Part shown: in pieces, positions 17,372 through 25,243 of the stretch
How the letters are laid out: each line of letters starts with the position of its first letter
Numbering within the stretch: position 1 is the stretch's first letter
Origin: Desulfococcus multivorans
GTDB taxonomy: Bacteria > Desulfobacterota > Desulfobacteria > Desulfobacterales > Desulfococcaceae
DNA: 64,000 bases
Reading direction: 5' to 3'
NCBI RefSeq assembly: GCF_001854245.1
Contig: NZ_CP015381.1
Coordinates: 2,081,001 to 2,145,000 of the forward strand
Position numbers and translations under genes: made by a program
The notes under the pieces: model-generated
What the model was told of the DNA's origin: nothing
Database searches by the model: none
The model's input: only the letters and a program-made list of their open reading frames with translations

Positions 17372-18826
17372 TCATTCCGCCTCCGGCCTGAACTGCAGAA
17401 AGAGATCGAAGACGAGCGTCCGGTTTGCCGGCGACGGGCCGTCGGCCCCTTCGATGCCGAACATGTCCAGATCGATATCGAACACGCCCCGGGCCAGCAG
17501 CAGCGGCCGGTTGTCGGGGCCGAAAACCGGCTCCATCTCCATGGTCACGGAAAGCGGGGTTTTCCGCCCTTTCAGGGTGAAGATGCCTTCAACCGACGCC
17601 GGGGACATCCGCCCGTAGGCCAGGGGATTCCCGTGGCTCCGAATGGTGTTGATGGTGAAGGCGGATTCCGGATAGCGCTGCACATCCAGAAAGGCACGGC
17701 CTCCGAGAACGTCGTCCAGGCCGCCGTCGCCCATGGTGACGGACCCCGGGTCGGCCGTTACCCATCCCGTCGCGCCTTCCAGAAGCCGATTTTCGACAAG
17801 ATCGATTCTCCCATCGCAGCGCATGACCTCTCCCCGATAATGATCCAGGGGGGTCTGAAAGTGAAACTGAATGAGCGGCGGATCTTCAGGCCCCGGTCGG
17901 CTGAGCCGCCAGGATCGCGGTATTCCGGCGGCAGTCGGCTGAACCGCCGTCGATCGGGTGGGCGGCTCGGGAAGGGGGAGCCCGATCTCGTCCCAGGTCG
18001 CAAGCCTGACGGATGTCTCGACCGGATCAAACCCGTCTCCGCTCCGGGTATCGGCGATCTGATCGTCAACAGCCTTTTCCAGAATCCGCGCCGCTTCGCG
18101 AAACAGCCGTCGCCGCTCCGACCAGGGACCGGTCAGGGGATCCTTTTTCCGCTCGAACACCGGTGCCTTGCAATGAAACTGCGAATATACGGCAAGGGAA
18201 AGGAACAGCGTCCCGTCGTTTGCGAGCCATGGGTACAGGTCCATGTAAAATCCGCGATCCGCCCGGCTCAAACGCACCTCCTGAACGGTTTTGAATCGGG
18301 TAAAGCCCTCGTCCATGGCGGTCCTGGCTTCCCTGACAAAGGCATCGTGGTCATAGGCGGGAGGCGGAGAGCCGGTCACGCGAGCGATCTTGACCGGCGC
18401 CCAGATCGTCGCTCGACCGGTTTGCCGGACAGGGATGTCCCTGAGAACGAGGCCGCCTGGTTCCTGGGGGACGTACCGGGATGTCCGGATGAAATTGCGG
18501 ATCCGATCGAGGGTCGTGTACCGCCCCTGATAGACGGACCGACCCCGAAAGTTCTGATAGACGATGAGCGGCGTGATGGCGACCGCTTCGGGTGCGCCCT
18601 TGCGGACGTCGATCCGGGAAACCCGAACCGACATGGCCTTTGCCAGTCGTTCGATTTCAGGCAGGGCATCCCGATGAAATGCCCGCGCGACCGCCGAGGC
18701 TTCCGGCCGGACGAAGATCACCAGTTGATCCGTGGTCTCCGCGGGCGCCGGTAATACGGATCCGAGAAAAACAGCGGCGACCCACAGGCAACCCGCCATC
18801 CATGCCTTGCGGTGATGAAAACGCAT
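17372..18826 (-). CDS. secreted protein with C-terminal YceI-like domain
   Basis: This 484-residue protein starts with a signal peptide (hydrophobic AGCLWVAAVFLGSVLP, cleavage near APAETT). Residues 33-105 look like a thioredoxin-like strand-helix pattern without a CxxC. The C-terminal 160 residues resemble the YceI lipocalin fold: HYRGEVMRCDGRIDLVENRL, then AFLDVQRYPESAFTI and IEGIFTLKGRKTPL-like segments. YceI proteins bind isoprenoid lipids in the periplasm. The combination with a large N-terminal part is unusual. GGGAGGAACCCG precedes the ATG. It faces the aminotransferase gene tail-to-tail with nine bases between. Confidence 0.65.
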   Translation of the reverse strand: MRFHHRKAWMAGCLWVAAVFLGSVLPAPAETTDQLVIFVRPEASAVARAFHRDALPEIERLAKAMSVRVSRIDVRKGAPEAVAITPLIVYQNFRGRSVYQGRYTTLDRIRNFIRTSRYVPQEPGGLVLRDIPVRQTGRATIWAPVKIARVTGSPPPAYDHDAFVREARTAMDEGFTRFKTVQEVRLSRADRGFYMDLYPWLANDGTLFLSLAVYSQFHCKAPVFERKKDPLTGPWSERRRLFREAARILEKAVDDQIADTRSGDGFDPVETSVRLATWDEIGLPLPEPPTRSTAVQPTAAGIPRSWRLSRPGPEDPPLIQFHFQTPLDHYRGEVMRCDGRIDLVENRLLEGATGWVTADPGSVTMGDGGLDDVLGGRAFLDVQRYPESAFTINTIRSHGNPLAYGRMSPASVEGIFTLKGRKTPLSVTMEMEPVFGPDNRPLLLARGVFDIDLDMFGIEGADGPSPANRTLVFDLFLQFRPEAE

Positions 18827-19210: not shown

Positions 19211-19228
19211 TTGGCATTTAAATTGCTT
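19211..19228 (+). promoter_or_regulatory. sigma-54 promoter of the receiver-channel operon
   Basis: TTGGCATTTAAATTGCTTTG carries GG at 19213-19214 and GC at 19225-19226 with the required 10-base separation, and TTGCT matches the -12 box. It lies about 70 bases before the kinase start codon. It is the second RpoN-type site in the window in front of a kinase operon. Confidence 0.7.
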
Positions 19229-19295: not shown

Positions 19296-21290
19296 ATGCT
19301 TTACTCGACCCGATCCAAACTCATCTTCAGCTTTCTCGGTGTGTCGCTGCTGGTCGGGACCGTATGCCTGATTGTCGGCTGGCAGCTTTTGTACGATTCC
19401 GTGTTGAACGAAGCCAGGAACCGCGTCCAACAGGATCTGAATGTCGCGCGGGTGATTTACGACGACCGGGTGGCGGCCATCCGGTTGTCGCTGGAAACCA
19501 CCTGTCTTGCCGCTGATTTCAGCGATGCCGTGGTCATGGGCGAACAGGCAATCCTGAAATCGCGGATGGAGCGGATCGCGAGGCGATTGGGCCTTGATTT
19601 CGCCGGTATCGTCTCAGCCGACGGCACATGGCTCTGCCGTATCGGCGACGGTGTCACGAACGCTGCCGCGGGACGGATGCCCATCGCGACTGCAGCCCTC
19701 GAAAGGCAGCATACGGTCTCGGGGACGGTGGTACTCGATCGGGGGACCCTTGCGGCCGAACATCCCGACCTGGCGAGACAATCCCGCATACGGACCCGCC
19801 TCGTCGATGCCGGGTCGGAGATGATGGACGGGTTGATGCCCATGGTGGAGGAGACTGGGGGCCTCGCCGTCGCATCCGCCGTTCCCGTCCTGCGGAAGGG
19901 AAAAATCATCGGTGCCGTATACGGTGGGATGCTTCTCAATCGCGATCAATCCATCGTGGACAAGATCGGCGGCACGGTTTTTCGCAACGAGGTTTACCGC
20001 GGGCACAACGTCGGCACGGCAACCATTTTCTTCAGAAACCTGAGAATTTCCACCAATGTTCTGGAAAAAGACGGCGAGCGTGCCATCGGAACCTTTGCTT
20101 CCCGGGAGGTGACCCGGCGTGTCCTCATCGAGGGCCGTAAATGGACGGATCGTGCCTATGTGGTGAACGATTGGTACATCACCGCCTATGAACCCATTCT
20201 GGATATCGAGAAGCGTCGGGTGGGGATGCTCTATGTCGGGGTTCTGGAAGCGAAATATCGGGACGTTCGGCAGAAAGCCCTCTGGGTCTTCGCACTGATC
20301 ACCCTTGCCGGCGTTCTGTTGGCCATCACCCTGGGATGGCTTACGGCCGATCGCATCATGCGGCCGGTAAATCAGTTGATCCGGGCCAGTATGGAAATCT
20401 CCAGGGGGAATTTTTCTCCGGATATCGGCCCCATCTCCAAAAGTGACATCGGGCTGCTTCAGCAGGAGTTCGGCAGAATGACCGACTCCCTGGTAAAACG
20501 GGATCAGGAGCATCAGGCGGAAAGCGAAAAGCGACTGATACAGTCGGAGAAGCAGGCGAGCATCGGAAAACTTGCCGCCGGCGTGGCCCATGAAATCAAC
20601 AACCCGCTGACGGCGGTGCTCACCTTTACCCATCTGATGCTTCGTCGAAAGGATCTTCCGGAGGAGCTCAGGGAGGACCTGCAAACCATCGCCCTGCAAA
20701 CGGAAAGGGTCCGCAGGATCGTGAAAGGTTTGCTGGACTTTTCACGCCAGAGCCGCCTGGATACGGAGCCTCTGAATATCGGCCGTCTGCTGGAGGACTG
20801 TGTCGAACTCATGGAAAATCAGGCGCTGATTCAGGGGGCCGTCCTCCGCTACGCCGCCGATGGTGAACTGCCGGTGCTGCAACTCGACCGAAATCAGATT
20901 CAGAGCGTCATGATCAACCTCATGATGAACGCACTGGATGCGCTGGCCCCCGGCGGAGAGATCGACATCCGGGCGGCCGTGCGTGAAAACGACGGTGAAA
21001 AAGGGGTCGAAATTTCCGTACGGGACACGGGGACGGGCATCGCCCCCGAGCACCTTGACAAGCTTTTTGATCCGTTTTTTACGACAAAGGAAGTGGGGAA
21101 GGGAACCGGACTCGGGCTTGCGGTGACCGCAGGTATCATCGAACGTCACGGCGGCCGGATCCGGGTGGAGAGCCAACTCGGGAAGGGCAGCCGATTCACC
21201 ATATGGCTCCCTTGCGTCGGAGCGGCTGCGCGCAATCGTGACCCCAATAGCGAAACGAGGATGAACGACCATGAAAATACTGGTGGTTGA
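19296..21290 (+). CDS. Cache-domain sensor histidine kinase with HAMP
   Basis: This 664-residue inner-membrane kinase has a helix at about 9-31, a large periplasmic sensor region (about 35-320) with the Cache_3-type signature GTATIFFRNLRISTNV, a second helix at about 330-352 and a HAMP segment (RPVNQLIRASMEISRGNF). The HisKA box is [16 protein letters not shown] with His432, followed by an ATPase domain with NLMMNALDAL, DTGTGIAPE and [16 protein letters not shown] precedes the ATG at 19296. The next receiver gene overlaps its 3' end by 20 bases. Cache_3 kinases often sense small carboxylic acids, which would suit the linked channel gene; the ligand is inferred. Confidence 0.92.
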   Translation: MLYSTRSKLIFSFLGVSLLVGTVCLIVGWQLLYDSVLNEARNRVQQDLNVARVIYDDRVAAIRLSLETTCLAADFSDAVVMGEQAILKSRMERIARRLGLDFAGIVSADGTWLCRIGDGVTNAAAGRMPIATAALERQHTVSGTVVLDRGTLAAEHPDLARQSRIRTRLVDAGSEMMDGLMPMVEETGGLAVASAVPVLRKGKIIGAVYGGMLLNRDQSIVDKIGGTVFRNEVYRGHNVGTATIFFRNLRISTNVLEKDGERAIGTFASREVTRRVLIEGRKWTDRAYVVNDWYITAYEPILDIEKRRVGMLYVGVLEAKYRDVRQKALWVFALITLAGVLLAITLGWLTADRIMRPVNQLIRASMEISRGNFSPDIGPISKSDIGLLQQEFGRMTDSLVKRDQEHQAESEKRLIQSEKQASIGKLAAGVAHEINNPLTAVLTFTHLMLRRKDLPEELREDLQTIALQTERVRRIVKGLLDFSRQSRLDTEPLNIGRLLEDCVELMENQALIQGAVLRYAADGELPVLQLDRNQIQSVMINLMMNALDALAPGGEIDIRAAVRENDGEKGVEISVRDTGTGIAPEHLDKLFDPFFTTKEVGKGTGLGLAVTAGIIERHGGRIRVESQLGKGSRFTIWLPCVGAAARNRDPNSETRMNDHENTGG

Positions 21291-21651
21291 CGATGATGCG
21301 ATGGTGGTGGAAAGCTGCCGGAGAATCCTGAAGGCGGAGGGTGCGACCGTCCATTGGGCGGAAGACGCCGACAAGGCTATTGCCGTTCTGAGAGGTGAAG
21401 GGGACTTTGATATGGTGTTGACCGACATCAAGATGCCCGGAAGAGACGGGTTTGAGCTGATTCGGGTGATCAAGGAAAAATTTCCGGGAACGGCGATCCT
21501 GATGATGACCGGCTATCTGATACCGGAAACCATCCGGAGGGGAACCGAATTCGGTGCGGACGGCGTTATCGCCAAACCGTTTACCCCCGATGAATTGACG
21601 GCTTCGGTCCGGAAAACGTTCTCGGTCGCACCTGTCCGAGACCGGAAATAA
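21271..21651 (+). CDS. single-domain response regulator
   Basis: This 126-residue receiver has the acidic triad DDD at the N terminus, the phosphoacceptor Asp52 in LTDIKMPG, Thr in MMTGYLI and Lys in IAKPFTPDEL. There is no output domain. It overlaps the kinase gene by 20 bases, so the two are co-translated. It probably relays between the kinase and the receiver-channel protein or competes with it. Confidence 0.93.
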   Translation: MKILVVDDDAMVVESCRRILKAEGATVHWAEDADKAIAVLRGEGDFDMVLTDIKMPGRDGFELIRVIKEKFPGTAILMMTGYLIPETIRRGTEFGADGVIAKPFTPDELTASVRKTFSVAPVRDRK

Positions 21652-21750: not shown

Positions 21751-23013
21751 ATGAAAGAACGGATGTTGGTGATAGACGATGACCCGGCTGTGCTGCGTTC
21801 CTGTGAAGCCATCTTCGGAAGCGATGGGTTTGCGGTGGAAACCACCCAGAATCCCGCCGAAGGCCTTGAGCTCAGCAGCCAAAACCATTACGGAGTAATC
21901 CTGTGCGATTGGAAGATGCCCGGATTCGACGGGCTCGACGTGATCGCCGAGCTGGAGGAGCGGGCGCCCGATTCGGCGGTGGTCATGTTCAGCGGGTATC
22001 CATCGGTGGATCGGGCCACGGAAGCCATGAAACGAGGTGCCATGGATTTTCTGGCAAAGCCTTTTACGCCGGATGAGATCACCGATGTGGTTCAGAAGGC
22101 GGTTCAACGGAAATTCAAGCAGGAAAAAAAGGTGTTTCATCGTCTGGAAAACATGTGGCAGAAATTCCCTGTCCCCGGCGTCGACGACAAGGGGCCCAGG
22201 ATTATCGCGGAAACGGTGGCCCAGACCGTCGGTGTGGCCAAGGCCAACTCGCCGTGGATCTCTCTCTTTGTTTTAGGCACGCTGGCAGGGGCCTATATTG
22301 GTTTCGGCGGTCTTTTCTCGGCGTCCGTCACCTTCGATCTTCCCCCTGAGCTGGGTCTGGGGATCAAAAAGCTCATCGGGGGAGCGGCGTTCAGCATCGG
22401 TCTGATGCTGGTGGTCATCGCGGGTGCCGAGCTGTATACCGGCAACAGCCTCATGGTGTCCAGCGTCATGATCGGCGAGGTCACCTGGCAGCGGGTCCTC
22501 GCCAAGTGGAGCGTGGTCTACGTCGCCAATTTTGTCGGTTCGATACTGCTGGCGCTTCTCTTTTATCTTTCCGGATTGTGGAAAACCGGCGGCGGACTTC
22601 TGGGTGAAACCGCCGTCAAGGTCGCTCACGCCAAGGTCCACCTCGGCTTTACGGAGGCCTTTGTCCGGGCGGTGGGCTGTAACTGGATGGTTTGTCTGGC
22701 GGTTTGGATGGCACTGGCGTCCCGTCAGGTCATCAGCAAGATCTTCGCCGTTTTTTTCCCGATCATGGGGTTCGTGGCCATCGGCTTCGAGCATTGCGTG
22801 GCCAACATGTATTTCATTCCCACCGGCATCTTTCTGAGCCATTGGGCGGGGATCGTGCCCGCCGGCGTGGACGTGGGCACGCTGACGTGGACGGCGTTCC
22901 TGGTGGACAATCTCGTCCCGGTAACCATCGGCAATACCGTGGGCGGCGTTGTTTTTGTCGGGCTGGGGTATTGGGGGGCCTATCTGCGACCGATCCTGCA
23001 GCCGGCAAGATGA
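21751..23013 (+). CDS. receiver domain fused to formate/nitrite channel
   Basis: This 420-residue fusion begins with a complete receiver domain (residues 1-122): acidic pocket Asp9/Asp10, phosphoacceptor Asp53 in LCDWKMPG, Ser in MFSGYPS and Lys in LAKPFTPDEI. A basic linker (VQRKFKQEKKVFHRLENM) leads to a full FNT channel domain (about 145-415) with six transmembrane segments: AGAYIGFGGLF, ELYTGNSLM, the NWMVCLAVWMAL helix and the GFEHCVANMYFIPTGIF helix. His348 matches the central pore histidine of FocA. GGAGG precedes the ATG. FNT proteins are pentameric channels for formate, nitrite, hydrosulfide or lactate/acetate. The reading frame is continuous through the junction. It is the last gene of a kinase-receiver operon, which suggests channel gating by phosphorylation. 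Confidence 0.93.
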   Translation: MKERMLVIDDDPAVLRSCEAIFGSDGFAVETTQNPAEGLELSSQNHYGVILCDWKMPGFDGLDVIAELEERAPDSAVVMFSGYPSVDRATEAMKRGAMDFLAKPFTPDEITDVVQKAVQRKFKQEKKVFHRLENMWQKFPVPGVDDKGPRIIAETVAQTVGVAKANSPWISLFVLGTLAGAYIGFGGLFSASVTFDLPPELGLGIKKLIGGAAFSIGLMLVVIAGAELYTGNSLMVSSVMIGEVTWQRVLAKWSVVYVANFVGSILLALLFYLSGLWKTGGGLLGETAVKVAHAKVHLGFTEAFVRAVGCNWMVCLAVWMALASRQVISKIFAVFFPIMGFVAIGFEHCVANMYFIPTGIFLSHWAGIVPAGVDVGTLTWTAFLVDNLVPVTIGNTVGGVVFVGLGYWGAYLRPILQPAR

Positions 23014-23400: not shown

Positions 23401-24105
23401 ATGAAAAACATGGATCAGGAGAAAACACCGATCAGGCTCAAGGGTGTCGGAAAAAACCTCTGTATCATCGTCGATCCCACGGAAAGCAATGAAGATCTTA
23501 TTCAAGAGATCACCAGACTTCTCAGTGAGTTGAAAGAGCAGGTGATTGACGGCGCCGTCACCATCGATGTCGGCGAAGGGCATGATGAGTTGTTTGACAC
23601 ACTCGGAACCTATATAAAAGACACTTACGGCGTGAGTTCGATTATACGCGCTGAGAAAAAAAACAGGATTGTCAAACGGTCGATTCTTCCGGAAGAGCGC
23701 ATGCGAATTCGGGACATGGAGCAATCCTGGCATCATCACAGCACGGATGTGCTCATGTTGGCCGGCCGGGTGAGATCGGGCCAGCGGGTCGTCGCTGAAA
23801 GGCATCTGATCATCATGGGGGATGTCAACCCCGGCGCCGAGGTGATCGCCGGGGGAGACGTGGTTATTCTGGGGAGTCTGATGGGAACCGCCATCGCGGG
23901 CCAACCCGAAAATGAAAAAAACATCGTGTTTGCGCTGGACTTCCGACCGACGCAGATACAGATCGGCAGTTTTGTCGCGGCGGGGCTTCCTTCTTCCCCT
24001 GAAAAAATCGCTGAGTTCGCCCACGTTGAAAACGGAACCATTGTGGTGGATAACTACCTGGAAGTCAATCCGTTCGGACGGTTGCCGTGGCCGCAGGTGC
24101 GATGA
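23401..24105 (+). CDS. minC: septum-site inhibitor MinC
   Basis: MinC blocks FtsZ assembly away from midcell and is brought to the membrane by MinD. The 234-residue product has an N-terminal FtsZ-interacting domain (residues 1-100, low conservation) and the C-terminal beta-helix (about 115-230) with GRVRSGQRVVAERHLIIMGD, VNPGAEVIAGGDVVILGSL and GTAIAG, the classical MinC signature. A second ATG at 23410 has better ribosome-binding-site spacing and may be the true start. minD follows after 49 bases and minE after that, the usual order. Confidence 0.94.
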   Translation: MKNMDQEKTPIRLKGVGKNLCIIVDPTESNEDLIQEITRLLSELKEQVIDGAVTIDVGEGHDELFDTLGTYIKDTYGVSSIIRAEKKNRIVKRSILPEERMRIRDMEQSWHHHSTDVLMLAGRVRSGQRVVAERHLIIMGDVNPGAEVIAGGDVVILGSLMGTAIAGQPENEKNIVFALDFRPTQIQIGSFVAAGLPSSPEKIAEFAHVENGTIVVDNYLEVNPFGRLPWPQVR

Positions 24106-24154
24106 GATGCACCGTATTACGAAGATCAATTCATACAGTATATGAGGTCAAACA

Positions 24155-24955
24155 TTGGACGGGAAAATCATTGTTGTCACTTCTGGCAAGGGGGGTGTGG
24201 GTAAAACCACGGCCACCGCTTCCATCGGCGCCGCACTGGCACTGGAAGGAAAACGGGTTGCCGTCGTCGATATGGACATCGGGCTCCGGAACCTGGACGT
24301 CGTGATGGGCTTGGAAAATCGGATCGTGTTTAACGTCGTTGATGCGGTCAAGTCCAAGTGTCAGCTGAAACAGGCGGCCATTCGAGACAGGCGGGTGGAG
24401 AATCTTTTTCTGATTCCCGCATCTCAGAGCGACAACAAGGATGCTCTGACGCCCGACGACATGATCATCTTCAGCGAACAGCTCAGAAAAGAGTTCGACT
24501 TTATTCTCATGGACTGTCCCGCGGGGATCGAGAGGGGGTTCGAGAACTCCGTGGCCGCCGCCGACGAAGCGCTGGTGATCTGCACTCCCGAGGTATCCGC
24601 GGTCCGGGATGCGGATCGCGTGATCGGTCTTCTCTACGCCCGCTCCATCACCCCCAAGCTCGTGGTCAATCGAATCGTTCCCGAAATGGTCGCGAGGGGG
24701 GATATGCTGAGTCATCTCGATATGGTGGATGTCCTCTCGATCGAGCTCATCGGGCTGGTGGAGATGGACGATCAGGTGGTGGTGGCCACCAATACCGGTA
24801 TTCCGTTGGCATTGCAGAAGGGGTCCAAGGCAGGGGAAGCGTTTCGCCGTATTGCCATGCGCCTGAACGGGCATGAAGATCTTCCGATACAGGTCCCAGA
24901 GGCCCAGGGAGGGTTTTTCAAAAGAATTCGCAACAAACTCGGTCTTGGGAGATAG
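24155..24955 (+). CDS. minD: septum-site ATPase MinD
   Basis: MinD is a deviant-Walker membrane ATPase that recruits MinC and oscillates or localises with MinE. The 266-residue product has SGKGGVGKTTATA (deviant Walker A), the switch region MDIGLRNLDVVMG, LMDCPAGIERG (Walker B), and a C-terminal amphipathic end (GFFKRIRNKLGLG) for membrane binding. The start codon is TTG, supported by GAGG seven bases upstream and by alignment of the N-terminal DGKIIVVTSGKGG. Confidence 0.97.
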   Translation: MDGKIIVVTSGKGGVGKTTATASIGAALALEGKRVAVVDMDIGLRNLDVVMGLENRIVFNVVDAVKSKCQLKQAAIRDRRVENLFLIPASQSDNKDALTPDDMIIFSEQLRKEFDFILMDCPAGIERGFENSVAAADEALVICTPEVSAVRDADRVIGLLYARSITPKLVVNRIVPEMVARGDMLSHLDMVDVLSIELIGLVEMDDQVVVATNTGIPLALQKGSKAGEAFRRIAMRLNGHEDLPIQVPEAQGGFFKRIRNKLGLGR

Positions 24956-24964
24956 GGGGGCCTT

Positions 24965-25243
24965 ATGCTAAACGGCTTTTTTCGAAAGATGATCGGCAAA
25001 AAAGACGACACCAGTAAGGATGTCGCCAAAAAACGCCTTAAATTCGCACTGATATATGATAAACTGGAGGTTTCCGATGAGATCATCAAAAACCTCCACA
25101 AGGATATGGTCGAGGTGATATCCCGCTACTTCGAGATCGATCAGGAGGCTTTCAAGCTCGACATCCGACGATCGGACGATCTCTCCGCGCTGGTGGTCAA
25201 CACCCCGATCCTGTCGGCCAAACACAAGCAACGGCAGACCTGA
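24965..25243 (+). CDS. minE: MinD topological regulator MinE
   Basis: The 92-residue product begins with a membrane-associating basic segment (LNGFFRKMIGKK). It continues with the anti-MinCD helix AKKRLKFALIYDKLEVS, which stimulates MinD ATPase, and ends with the dimerisation domain (EVISRYFEIDQEAFKLDI). Length and order match the family. It starts nine bases after minD and is followed by a bidirectional hairpin. Confidence 0.95.
   Translation: MLNGFFRKMIGKKDDTSKDVAKKRLKFALIYDKLEVSDEIIKNLHKDMVEVISRYFEIDQEAFKLDIRRSDDLSALVVNTPILSAKHKQRQT

Follow-up and report, generated by a model that had tools for sequence, protein, structure and literature searches.

A receiver-FNT fusion of Desulfococcus multivorans: a putative response regulator with a formate channel as its output

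Within a 64,000-nucleotide stretch of the Desulfococcus multivorans genome (contig NZ_CP015381.1, positions 2,081,001 to 2,145,000; hereafter, the window), we identified a gene that encodes, in a single reading frame, a complete response-regulator receiver and a complete channel of the formate/nitrite transporter (FNT) family. We propose that the product is a response regulator with a formate channel as its output, gated by the histidine kinase of the same gene cassette and opened by phosphorylation. We assign this reading a probability of about 0.55; in it, we infer the phosphotransfer, the pentameric assembly, the coupling of the two domains, the substrate and the direction of the switch.

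The fusion protein and its relatives

The gene starts with ATG, contains no internal stops and specifies 420 amino acids (aa). Its features (window coordinates) are as follows:

21751-23013, + strand: gene of the receiver-FNT fusion channel, 420 aa (open reading frame, Pfam, alignment, tree, model and fold match)
21766-22092, + strand: receiver domain, residues 6-114, with phospho-acceptor D53 (Pfam PF00072, conservation and fold)
22069-22161, + strand: predicted extension of receiver helix alpha-5 as a stalk helix, residues 107-137 (AlphaFold2; residues 132-137 lie within a low-confidence stretch)
22204-22245, + strand: predicted helix, residues 152-165, equivalent to the N-terminal gating helix of FocA (AlphaFold2, with pLDDT <50 for residues 152-159, and structural alignment)
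22213-22974, + strand: FNT channel domain, residues 155-408 (Pfam, conserved pore residues and fold of FocA 9g49)

The two Pfam profiles match far above their cut-offs: Response_reg (PF00072) at residues 6-114 (E 1.2e-27; 96.6 bits vs 30.2) and Form_Nir_trans (PF01226) at residues 155-408 (E 7.3e-80; 268.2 bits vs 34.6). The switch residues D9, D10, D53, S81 and K103 are all present, so the receiver is complete, and the channel carries the pore residues T230 and H348, the gate pair F214/F341, K295 and N311. The protein thus combines the marks of an FNT (profile over cut-off, pore His and Thr with a Phe gate, protomer fold) with those of a response regulator (receiver profile and fold, acidic pair, phospho-acceptor Asp, Ser/Thr and Lys). 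Open-frame reading, Pfam and residue alignment bear out the original prediction of an unbroken 420-residue frame joining a complete receiver to a full FNT with His348. Among the NCBIfam profiles, the channel exceeds the cut-off of the general FNT subfamily TIGR00790 (250.4 vs 232.3 bits) and stays below that of the FocA equivalog TIGR04060 (223.0 vs 290.1 bits), with NirC far behind at 124.4 bits. An FNT search of the class-sample genomes found this fusion to be the sole FNT of the window genome.

In order to collect relatives, we combined a species scan (one genome per species; best 80 of 107 relatives kept) with a class and a phylum sample, in which many genomes are incomplete drafts. The collected loci contained 152 FNT open reading frames (ORFs), 73 of them with both domains; after removal of short or broken copies (L003, L053, L056 and L135) and identical duplicates, 48 distinct intact receiver-FNT fusions were left. 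The remaining 47 share 57-83% identity with the window protein, and no pair falls below 57%. The search for this architecture, which the original prediction had called for, thus yielded a family, one that also shares a gene neighbourhood (described below).

Intact fusions occur in 26 of the 80 FNT-bearing genomes of the class sample (389 genomes searched; window genome included) and, with receivers confirmed by profile, in 10 of the 69 FNT-bearing genomes of the phylum sample (395 searched), three of the ten (G000, G058 and G064) being present in both samples. The carriers belong to Desulfobacterota, Spirochaetota and metagenome-assembled genomes (MAGs) labelled Acidobacteria and Latescibacterota; among the names in their records are Desulfobacula, Desulfoluna, Desulfobacterium, Desulfosediminicola, Desulforhopalus, Syntrophaceae, Spirochaetota, an Acidobacteria MAG and a Latescibacterota MAG. 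Labels of MAGs are not always right, but in the FNT tree four of the five rows from Spirochaetota fall together on a starred branch.

In that tree (115 rows, quick search, unrooted), built without duplicates, FNT domains shorter than 225 residues or matches with E >1e-30 (the ferritin-like fusions described below among them), the 48 fusions form one side of a single branch with SH-aLRT support of 100. Shuffled labels required a mean of 36.9 changes, and no receiver-less FNT was nested among the fusions in the 115-row sample. The tree fits, and would be compatible with, a one-time acquisition of the receiver.

The same data dispose of the view that the fusion is an artefact of sequencing error, frameshift or assembly chimera. 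Altered frames do exist in a few relatives, as an in-frame internal loss (L003/L056) and a split frame (L053/L135), but 48 distinct intact fusions from independent genomes, all on one side of a branch, exclude a frameshift or a joining of two genes, one outcome that the original prediction had named as its refutation, and we consider this explanation refuted. In the two entries of a MAG from the window's genus (L003/L056, coordinates 1341-2153), residue 140 is joined in frame to residue 300, and another contig of this MAG (L137) carries a further fragment of the fusion gene. In Desulfosarcina cetonica (L053/L135, 2889-4153) the frame is split within the channel; of L134, only a neighbouring receiver and residues 202-414 of the channel remain, with no run of N closer than the one in its kinase; L136 and L092 hold remnants of a receiver-FNT gene. 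Such copies attest to loss, or to poor assembly, in some lineages; the main result is unaffected.

A virus or plasmid origin of the fusion was also considered and rejected. The viral contigs searched contained no close relative, and among 4120 plasmid records with some match, one place covered 80% of the query, in Azospirillum lipoferum 4B (fusion residues 59-417, 37.7% identity). What is annotated there is an 882-base gene for a stand-alone FNT; the additional stretch of alignment falls ahead of its start.

The original prediction had held that FNT channels are normally stand-alone, which is wrong for this lineage, given the 26 of 80 genomes mentioned above. FNTs bearing other soluble parts were seen as well: a CBS pair, a domain of the ferritin-like kind, or an unnamed tail (see the next section). 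The CBS pair lies at the C-terminus of an FNT in a gammaproteobacterial MAG (L061:4695-5936), where it is possibly another built-in regulator. In a single family of Desulfobacterota, four genomes (L151-L154, e.g. L152:3908-5698) have a ferritin-like/rubrerythrin domain in front of a distant FNT, identified by profile in L152 and by eye in L151, L153 and L154.

Both functional sites are strictly maintained across the 48 fusions. D9, D10, D53 and K103 never vary, and position 81 is occupied by Ser in 47 proteins and by Thr in one, which rules out a vestigial receiver. In the channel, 13 positions equivalent to FocA pore positions are invariant: F75, L79, D88 (Glu in the fusions), L89, T91, K156, N172, V175, F202, E208, H209, N213 and N262, with H348 corresponding to H209, T230 to T91, F214 to F75 and F341 to F202. 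According to the available text of PMC9380403, K156 and N172 are important for formate translocation by E. coli FocA, and N213 and N262 for its stability. At the channel end Y-L is invariant and 44 of the 48 proteins show Y-L-R/K, a tripeptide associated with FocA-type formate channels in the accessible part of PMC5572259.

Compared pairwise, the receivers have a median identity of 65.8% and the stalks, as the least conserved of the five parts, one of 47.6%; residues 139-151 reach 61.5%, the N-terminal helix reaches 78.6% and the membrane part 70.4%. The spacing between K121 and F139 takes only two values (20 in 31 proteins, 18 in 17), the spacings F139-P149 and P149-T155 are constant throughout, and the N-terminal helix has six invariant residues (I152, A153, T155, A157, V162 and K164). 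Judged by these alignments, the receiver and channel halves are both constrained.

An AlphaFold2 monomer model built from the 48 sequences had a mean pLDDT of 76.0 and a pTM of 0.58; with this pTM, and with pLDDT <50 for residues 132-159 (the hinge and half of the proposed gating helix), it does not fix the orientation of the receiver to the pore. The channel part aligned with full-length E. coli FocA (9g49) at Z 34.9 (rmsd 2.1, 268 residues), model residues 141 to 413 corresponding to FocA 6 to 281. Because the alignment begins at FocA residue 6, nearly the whole of FocA, its N-terminal helix included, has an equivalent, and the receiver is added ahead of that helix. The bicarbonate channel LciA (9v2a) is also a close structural match to the channel part (Z 32.9). 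Receiver structures match the fused receiver at Z values of about 19-21; receiver plus stalk (model residues 3-141) aligned with NtrC1 (1zy2) at Z 21.2 (rmsd 1.4, 139 residues).

The kinase-receiver cassette

The fusion gene is the last of three in the order Cache kinase, single receiver, receiver-FNT. The upstream features in the window are:

19212-19227, + strand: sigma-54 (-24/-12) type element TGGCATTTAAATTGCT, an exact match ending 68 bases before the kinase ATG
19296-21290, + strand: membrane histidine kinase with sCache_3, HAMP, HisKA and HATPase_c domains (Pfam), 664 aa from the ATG at 19296
21271-21651, + strand: single-domain response regulator, 126 aa (PF00072, E 5e-28; D7/D8, D52, T80 and K102)

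The kinase stop overlaps the start of the single receiver, and 99 bases separate the latter from the fusion gene. The ORF list gives an alternative kinase start at TTG 19281. The predicted phospho-acceptor H432 lies inside an HEINNP box, which is present in 37/37 cassette kinases and is not a rare kinase box. The sensor is weakly similar in sequence to chemoreceptor ligand-binding domains (8py0, E 9e-5; 8py1, E 0.005). The Cache kinase and the second complete receiver expected upstream of the fusion were thus found, by Pfam and by reading of the receiver residues.

The cassette was tabulated for 44 non-redundant loci out of 61 spanning ORFs (the other 17 are duplicates or short extracts of the same genomes); seven phylum-sample fusions stand outside this table. 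In 37 loci the fusion is preceded on its own strand, at a distance of no more than 6 kb, by a kinase like that of the window; 36 loci have a further receiver upstream of the fusion. As for the seven loci without the kinase, the contigs of three (L045, L054 and L129) end within 0.7 kb, three (L040, L041 and L052) have 3-6 kb of upstream sequence without one, and the last (L127) has about 1 kb.

A sigma-54-like site before the kinase had likewise been predicted and is present. Scanning the window alone gave two matches, both exact, vs 2.8 expected with one mismatch, which is not significant. In the 37 cassettes with a kinase, to which this count is confined, TGGC-N7-TTGC occurs upstream of the kinase in 17 vs 0.8 expected (mean 0.81, maximum 4, in 500 draws of random 420-base windows from the same loci), and never on the reverse strand near the kinase. 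The significance of this putative promoter element comes from its recurrence upstream of the kinase, not from the window scan.

The two receivers resemble each other in helix alpha1. In the fused receiver, the residues of the pattern V-L-x-S-C are conserved as V in 43/44, L in 44/44, S in 41/44 and C in 44/44; in the further receiver (V-x-x-S-C), V, S and C are each found in 34/35 and L in 22/35. A small background of nine segments, chosen by pattern from other receiver loci, had V in two, C in five, and L and S in none. This similarity is consistent with one kinase serving both the fused and the neighbouring receiver.

ORF clustering of the 44 loci, many with short flanks, revealed no widespread shared neighbours beyond the cassette genes and frames overlapping them; the other neighbour groups among the 25 listed comprise at most about five loci each, and no conserved metabolic neighbours of the fusion were found. 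In the window, the cassette is followed on the same strand by minC (C-terminal domain), minD and minE (23401-25243), which are absent from the shared neighbour groups listed for other cassettes, and a YceI-domain protein of 484 residues is encoded divergently upstream (17372-18826, - strand). Two cassettes include a receiver-HisKA-HATPase hybrid kinase (L038:4006-5211 and L049:4765-5910; Pfam on the L038 copy) and, in addition, a divergent receiver, which may point to a relay in these versions.

In 17 of the 44 loci, the window not among them, the fusion is accompanied by one or two proteins consisting of a receiver and a tail of about 75 residues without a Pfam match. As open frames these are mostly 209-256 residues long, some being cut by a contig end; two examples are:

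L035:5245-5901: receiver-tail protein
L042:4620-5246: receiver-tail protein

A profile of the tail also matches the C-terminus of a receiver-less FNT (L133, 1513-2844; E 3.1e-9 for the protein) and a small neighbouring ORF (L133, 2885-3214; E 2.4e-15). The tail occurs in 25 genomes of a 147-genome sample, the window genome not being one. Four further loci were inspected: in three (L164, L166 and L167) a receiver precedes the tail, and by eye we noted HdrA-like sequence (L164, L165) and sigma-54-activator-like sequence (L164, L166, L167) nearby. This shows that the tail is tied to FNTs in two ways, yet is not specific to them.

A proposed phospho-switch and its alternatives

Direct control of transport by the receiver would be the most economical reading, because the receiver is attached ahead of a FocA-type gating helix; the original prediction that D53 phosphorylation could control transport is in this respect partly supported. 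The FocA helix rests flat against the cytoplasmic face, undergoes order-disorder changes and can block the channel; it is contacted by pyruvate formate-lyase (PflB), together with which it gates the pore, and its removal severely disrupts translocation (available text of PMC12559229 and PMC11841067).

We suggest the following sequence of events. The periplasm-facing Cache kinase, produced from the same sigma-54-type cassette, would autophosphorylate at H432, and the phosphate would pass to D53 of the five receivers borne by a channel pentamer, and also to the neighbouring single receiver. With its HExxN box, the kinase would probably remove the phosphate too. Phosphorylation would alter the alpha4-beta5-alpha5 face of the receiver, and the stalk helix that prolongs alpha-5 (107-137) would transmit the change to the N-terminal helix (152-165); this helix, placed at the cytoplasmic mouth as in FocA, would gate the pore. 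The built-in phospho-switch would thereby take the role that bound PflB shares in FocA. Receivers often act as dimers; a pentamer has an odd number of them, and even pairing would therefore be impossible, leaving two pairs and a single receiver, pairing between pentamers, or monomeric action.

As to direction, we lean somewhat towards a channel that is shut at rest and opened by phosphorylation, since formate is an internal one-carbon intermediate in this organism, which an always-open channel would leak. Such a leak would probably be costly in D. multivorans because of its Wood-Ljungdahl oxidation of acetyl-CoA, its cytoplasmic formate dehydrogenase and its formate-tetrahydrofolate ligase. 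According to the available text of the genome paper (PMC5109826), acetyl-CoA is oxidised via the Wood-Ljungdahl route, formate dehydrogenase is cytoplasmic only, and formate is not usable by the organism. The ligase is encoded in the window genome; with 30/33 fusion genomes vs 36/40 genomes with other FNTs, it does not discriminate as a marker of the fusion.

PflB was likewise rejected as a marker of fused vs other FNTs. None of the 73 genomes (0/33 with the fusion, 0/40 with other FNTs) had a TIGR01255 match over the cut-off, E. coli being positive among the controls; matches well below the cut-off were found in 48 of the 73, several of which are incomplete, and none in the window genome. The absence of PflB allows the receiver to be a PflB substitute, without singling this out.

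Formate is the most likely substrate on the strength of the pore residues and the end tripeptide, not of the neighbouring genes. FNT substrates also include nitrite, hydrosulfide, bicarbonate and lactate, and the channel may be regulated as we propose while chiefly carrying hydrosulfide, nitrite, bicarbonate, acetate or another small monovalent anion. Besides the variability of FNT substrates, the structural closeness of the bicarbonate channel LciA (9v2a, Z 32.9) speaks for this, as does the inability of D. multivorans to use formate (PMC5109826, available text). The complete FocA pore set, the Y-L-R/K end and the ranking of the profiles, with TIGR00790 and FocA well above NirC (250.4, 223.0 and 124.4 bits), argue against it, and we regard this possibility, which overlaps our main reading, as rather doubtful.

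Two further explanations concern what the receiver does. It may dock the kinase, place the channel in a signalling complex, or act as a phosphate sink, in each case leaving conductance unchanged. In favour of this, the kinase-facing alpha1 residues are conserved and the stalk is the least conserved of the five parts (median 47.6% pairwise); but the phospho-chemistry residues are kept in 48/48 fusions, including S/T81 and K103, which switching rather than mere docking needs, and the linker spacing is constrained, making a docking role unlikely. Alternatively, information might flow the other way: D53 dephosphorylation or the kinase complex would respond to substrate occupying the pore or to the N-terminal helix and its state. 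The two-component system would then be informed of formate flux by the channel, with the neighbouring receivers providing the output. Cassettes with extra receivers (36/44 loci) and receiver-tail proteins (17/44) could provide such an output, and transporter-kinase fusions that sense their substrate are known in the SLC5/STAC kinases (PMC9100948, accessible part). Against this stand the nature of the fused part, a receiver and not a kinase, the retention of the full channel residues and the gating helix, and the Cache sensor owned by the kinases that were checked by profile; a reporting channel seems improbable to us.

Relation to known systems and significance

The fusion has the fold and the pore residues of FocA from E. 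coli (3kcu/9g49) and Vibrio (3kly), together with a counterpart of the FocA N-terminal helix and a Y-L-R/K end. It differs in about 140 extra N-terminal residues, which form the complete receiver and stalk, and in its score below the FocA equivalog cut-off. It is encoded beside a kinase, whereas in E. coli focA shares its operon with pflB (PMC11841067, available text). With the receivers of NtrC/FixJ-type regulators (NtrC1, 1zy2) it has in common a complete phospho-acceptor site and the fold, including the helix after alpha-5; unlike theirs, its output is a membrane channel and not an AAA+ or DNA-binding domain. The FNTs with a CBS pair (L061) or a ferritin-like domain (L151-L154) resemble it as channels with an added soluble domain, in their case without a receiver.

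Control of a channel by a cytoplasmic signalling protein, without transcription, is familiar from AmtB, which is gated by GlnK. In that case the regulator is a separate, metabolite-sensing trimer subject to uridylylation, whereas the regulator of the fusion is covalently attached and phosphorylatable. The SLC5/STAC sensor kinases (PMC9100948, accessible part) also combine a transport domain with a two-component module, but there the kinase is fused and the protein senses. In the protein described here it is the receiver that is fused, so information most likely runs from signalling to transport.

Each of the components (receiver, kinase and FNT) is of a known kind, and we found no description of a channel as a response-regulator output, or of the receiver-FNT architecture, in the literature searched (most subscription papers and all preprints lie outside its coverage). 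Nor did we find in it a paper combining 'formate transporter' with 'receiver domain'; the main text of an FNT phylogeny paper (PMC5525234) lacks the terms 'response regulator', 'receiver' and 'fused', and that of the D. multivorans genome paper (PMC5109826) mentions neither FocA nor a nitrite transporter. The outputs of response regulators are, to our knowledge, overwhelmingly DNA-, RNA-, enzyme- or protein-binding domains.

If the proposed mechanism is true, the fusion would let two-component signalling control membrane transport rapidly and post-translationally. It may also offer a handle on an open question of the FNT family, namely how the N-terminal helix gates formate flux: with a phospho-switch wired to this helix by a stalk of two lengths, gating could be chemically toggled, for example by a phosphate mimic or D53 variants. 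Tentatively, and at slightly less than even odds, we see in these proteins a class of channel-output response regulators in sulfate reducers and other anaerobes for which formate is internal and not to be leaked; phosphotransfer from a kinase sensing outside the cytoplasm would here directly gate anion flux through the covalently attached FNT pentamer. In part of the family, as a component of this reading, the tail-bearing receivers would be additional subunits of that gate. For sulfate reducers and syntrophs, the finding would bear on the control of formate exchange between cells.
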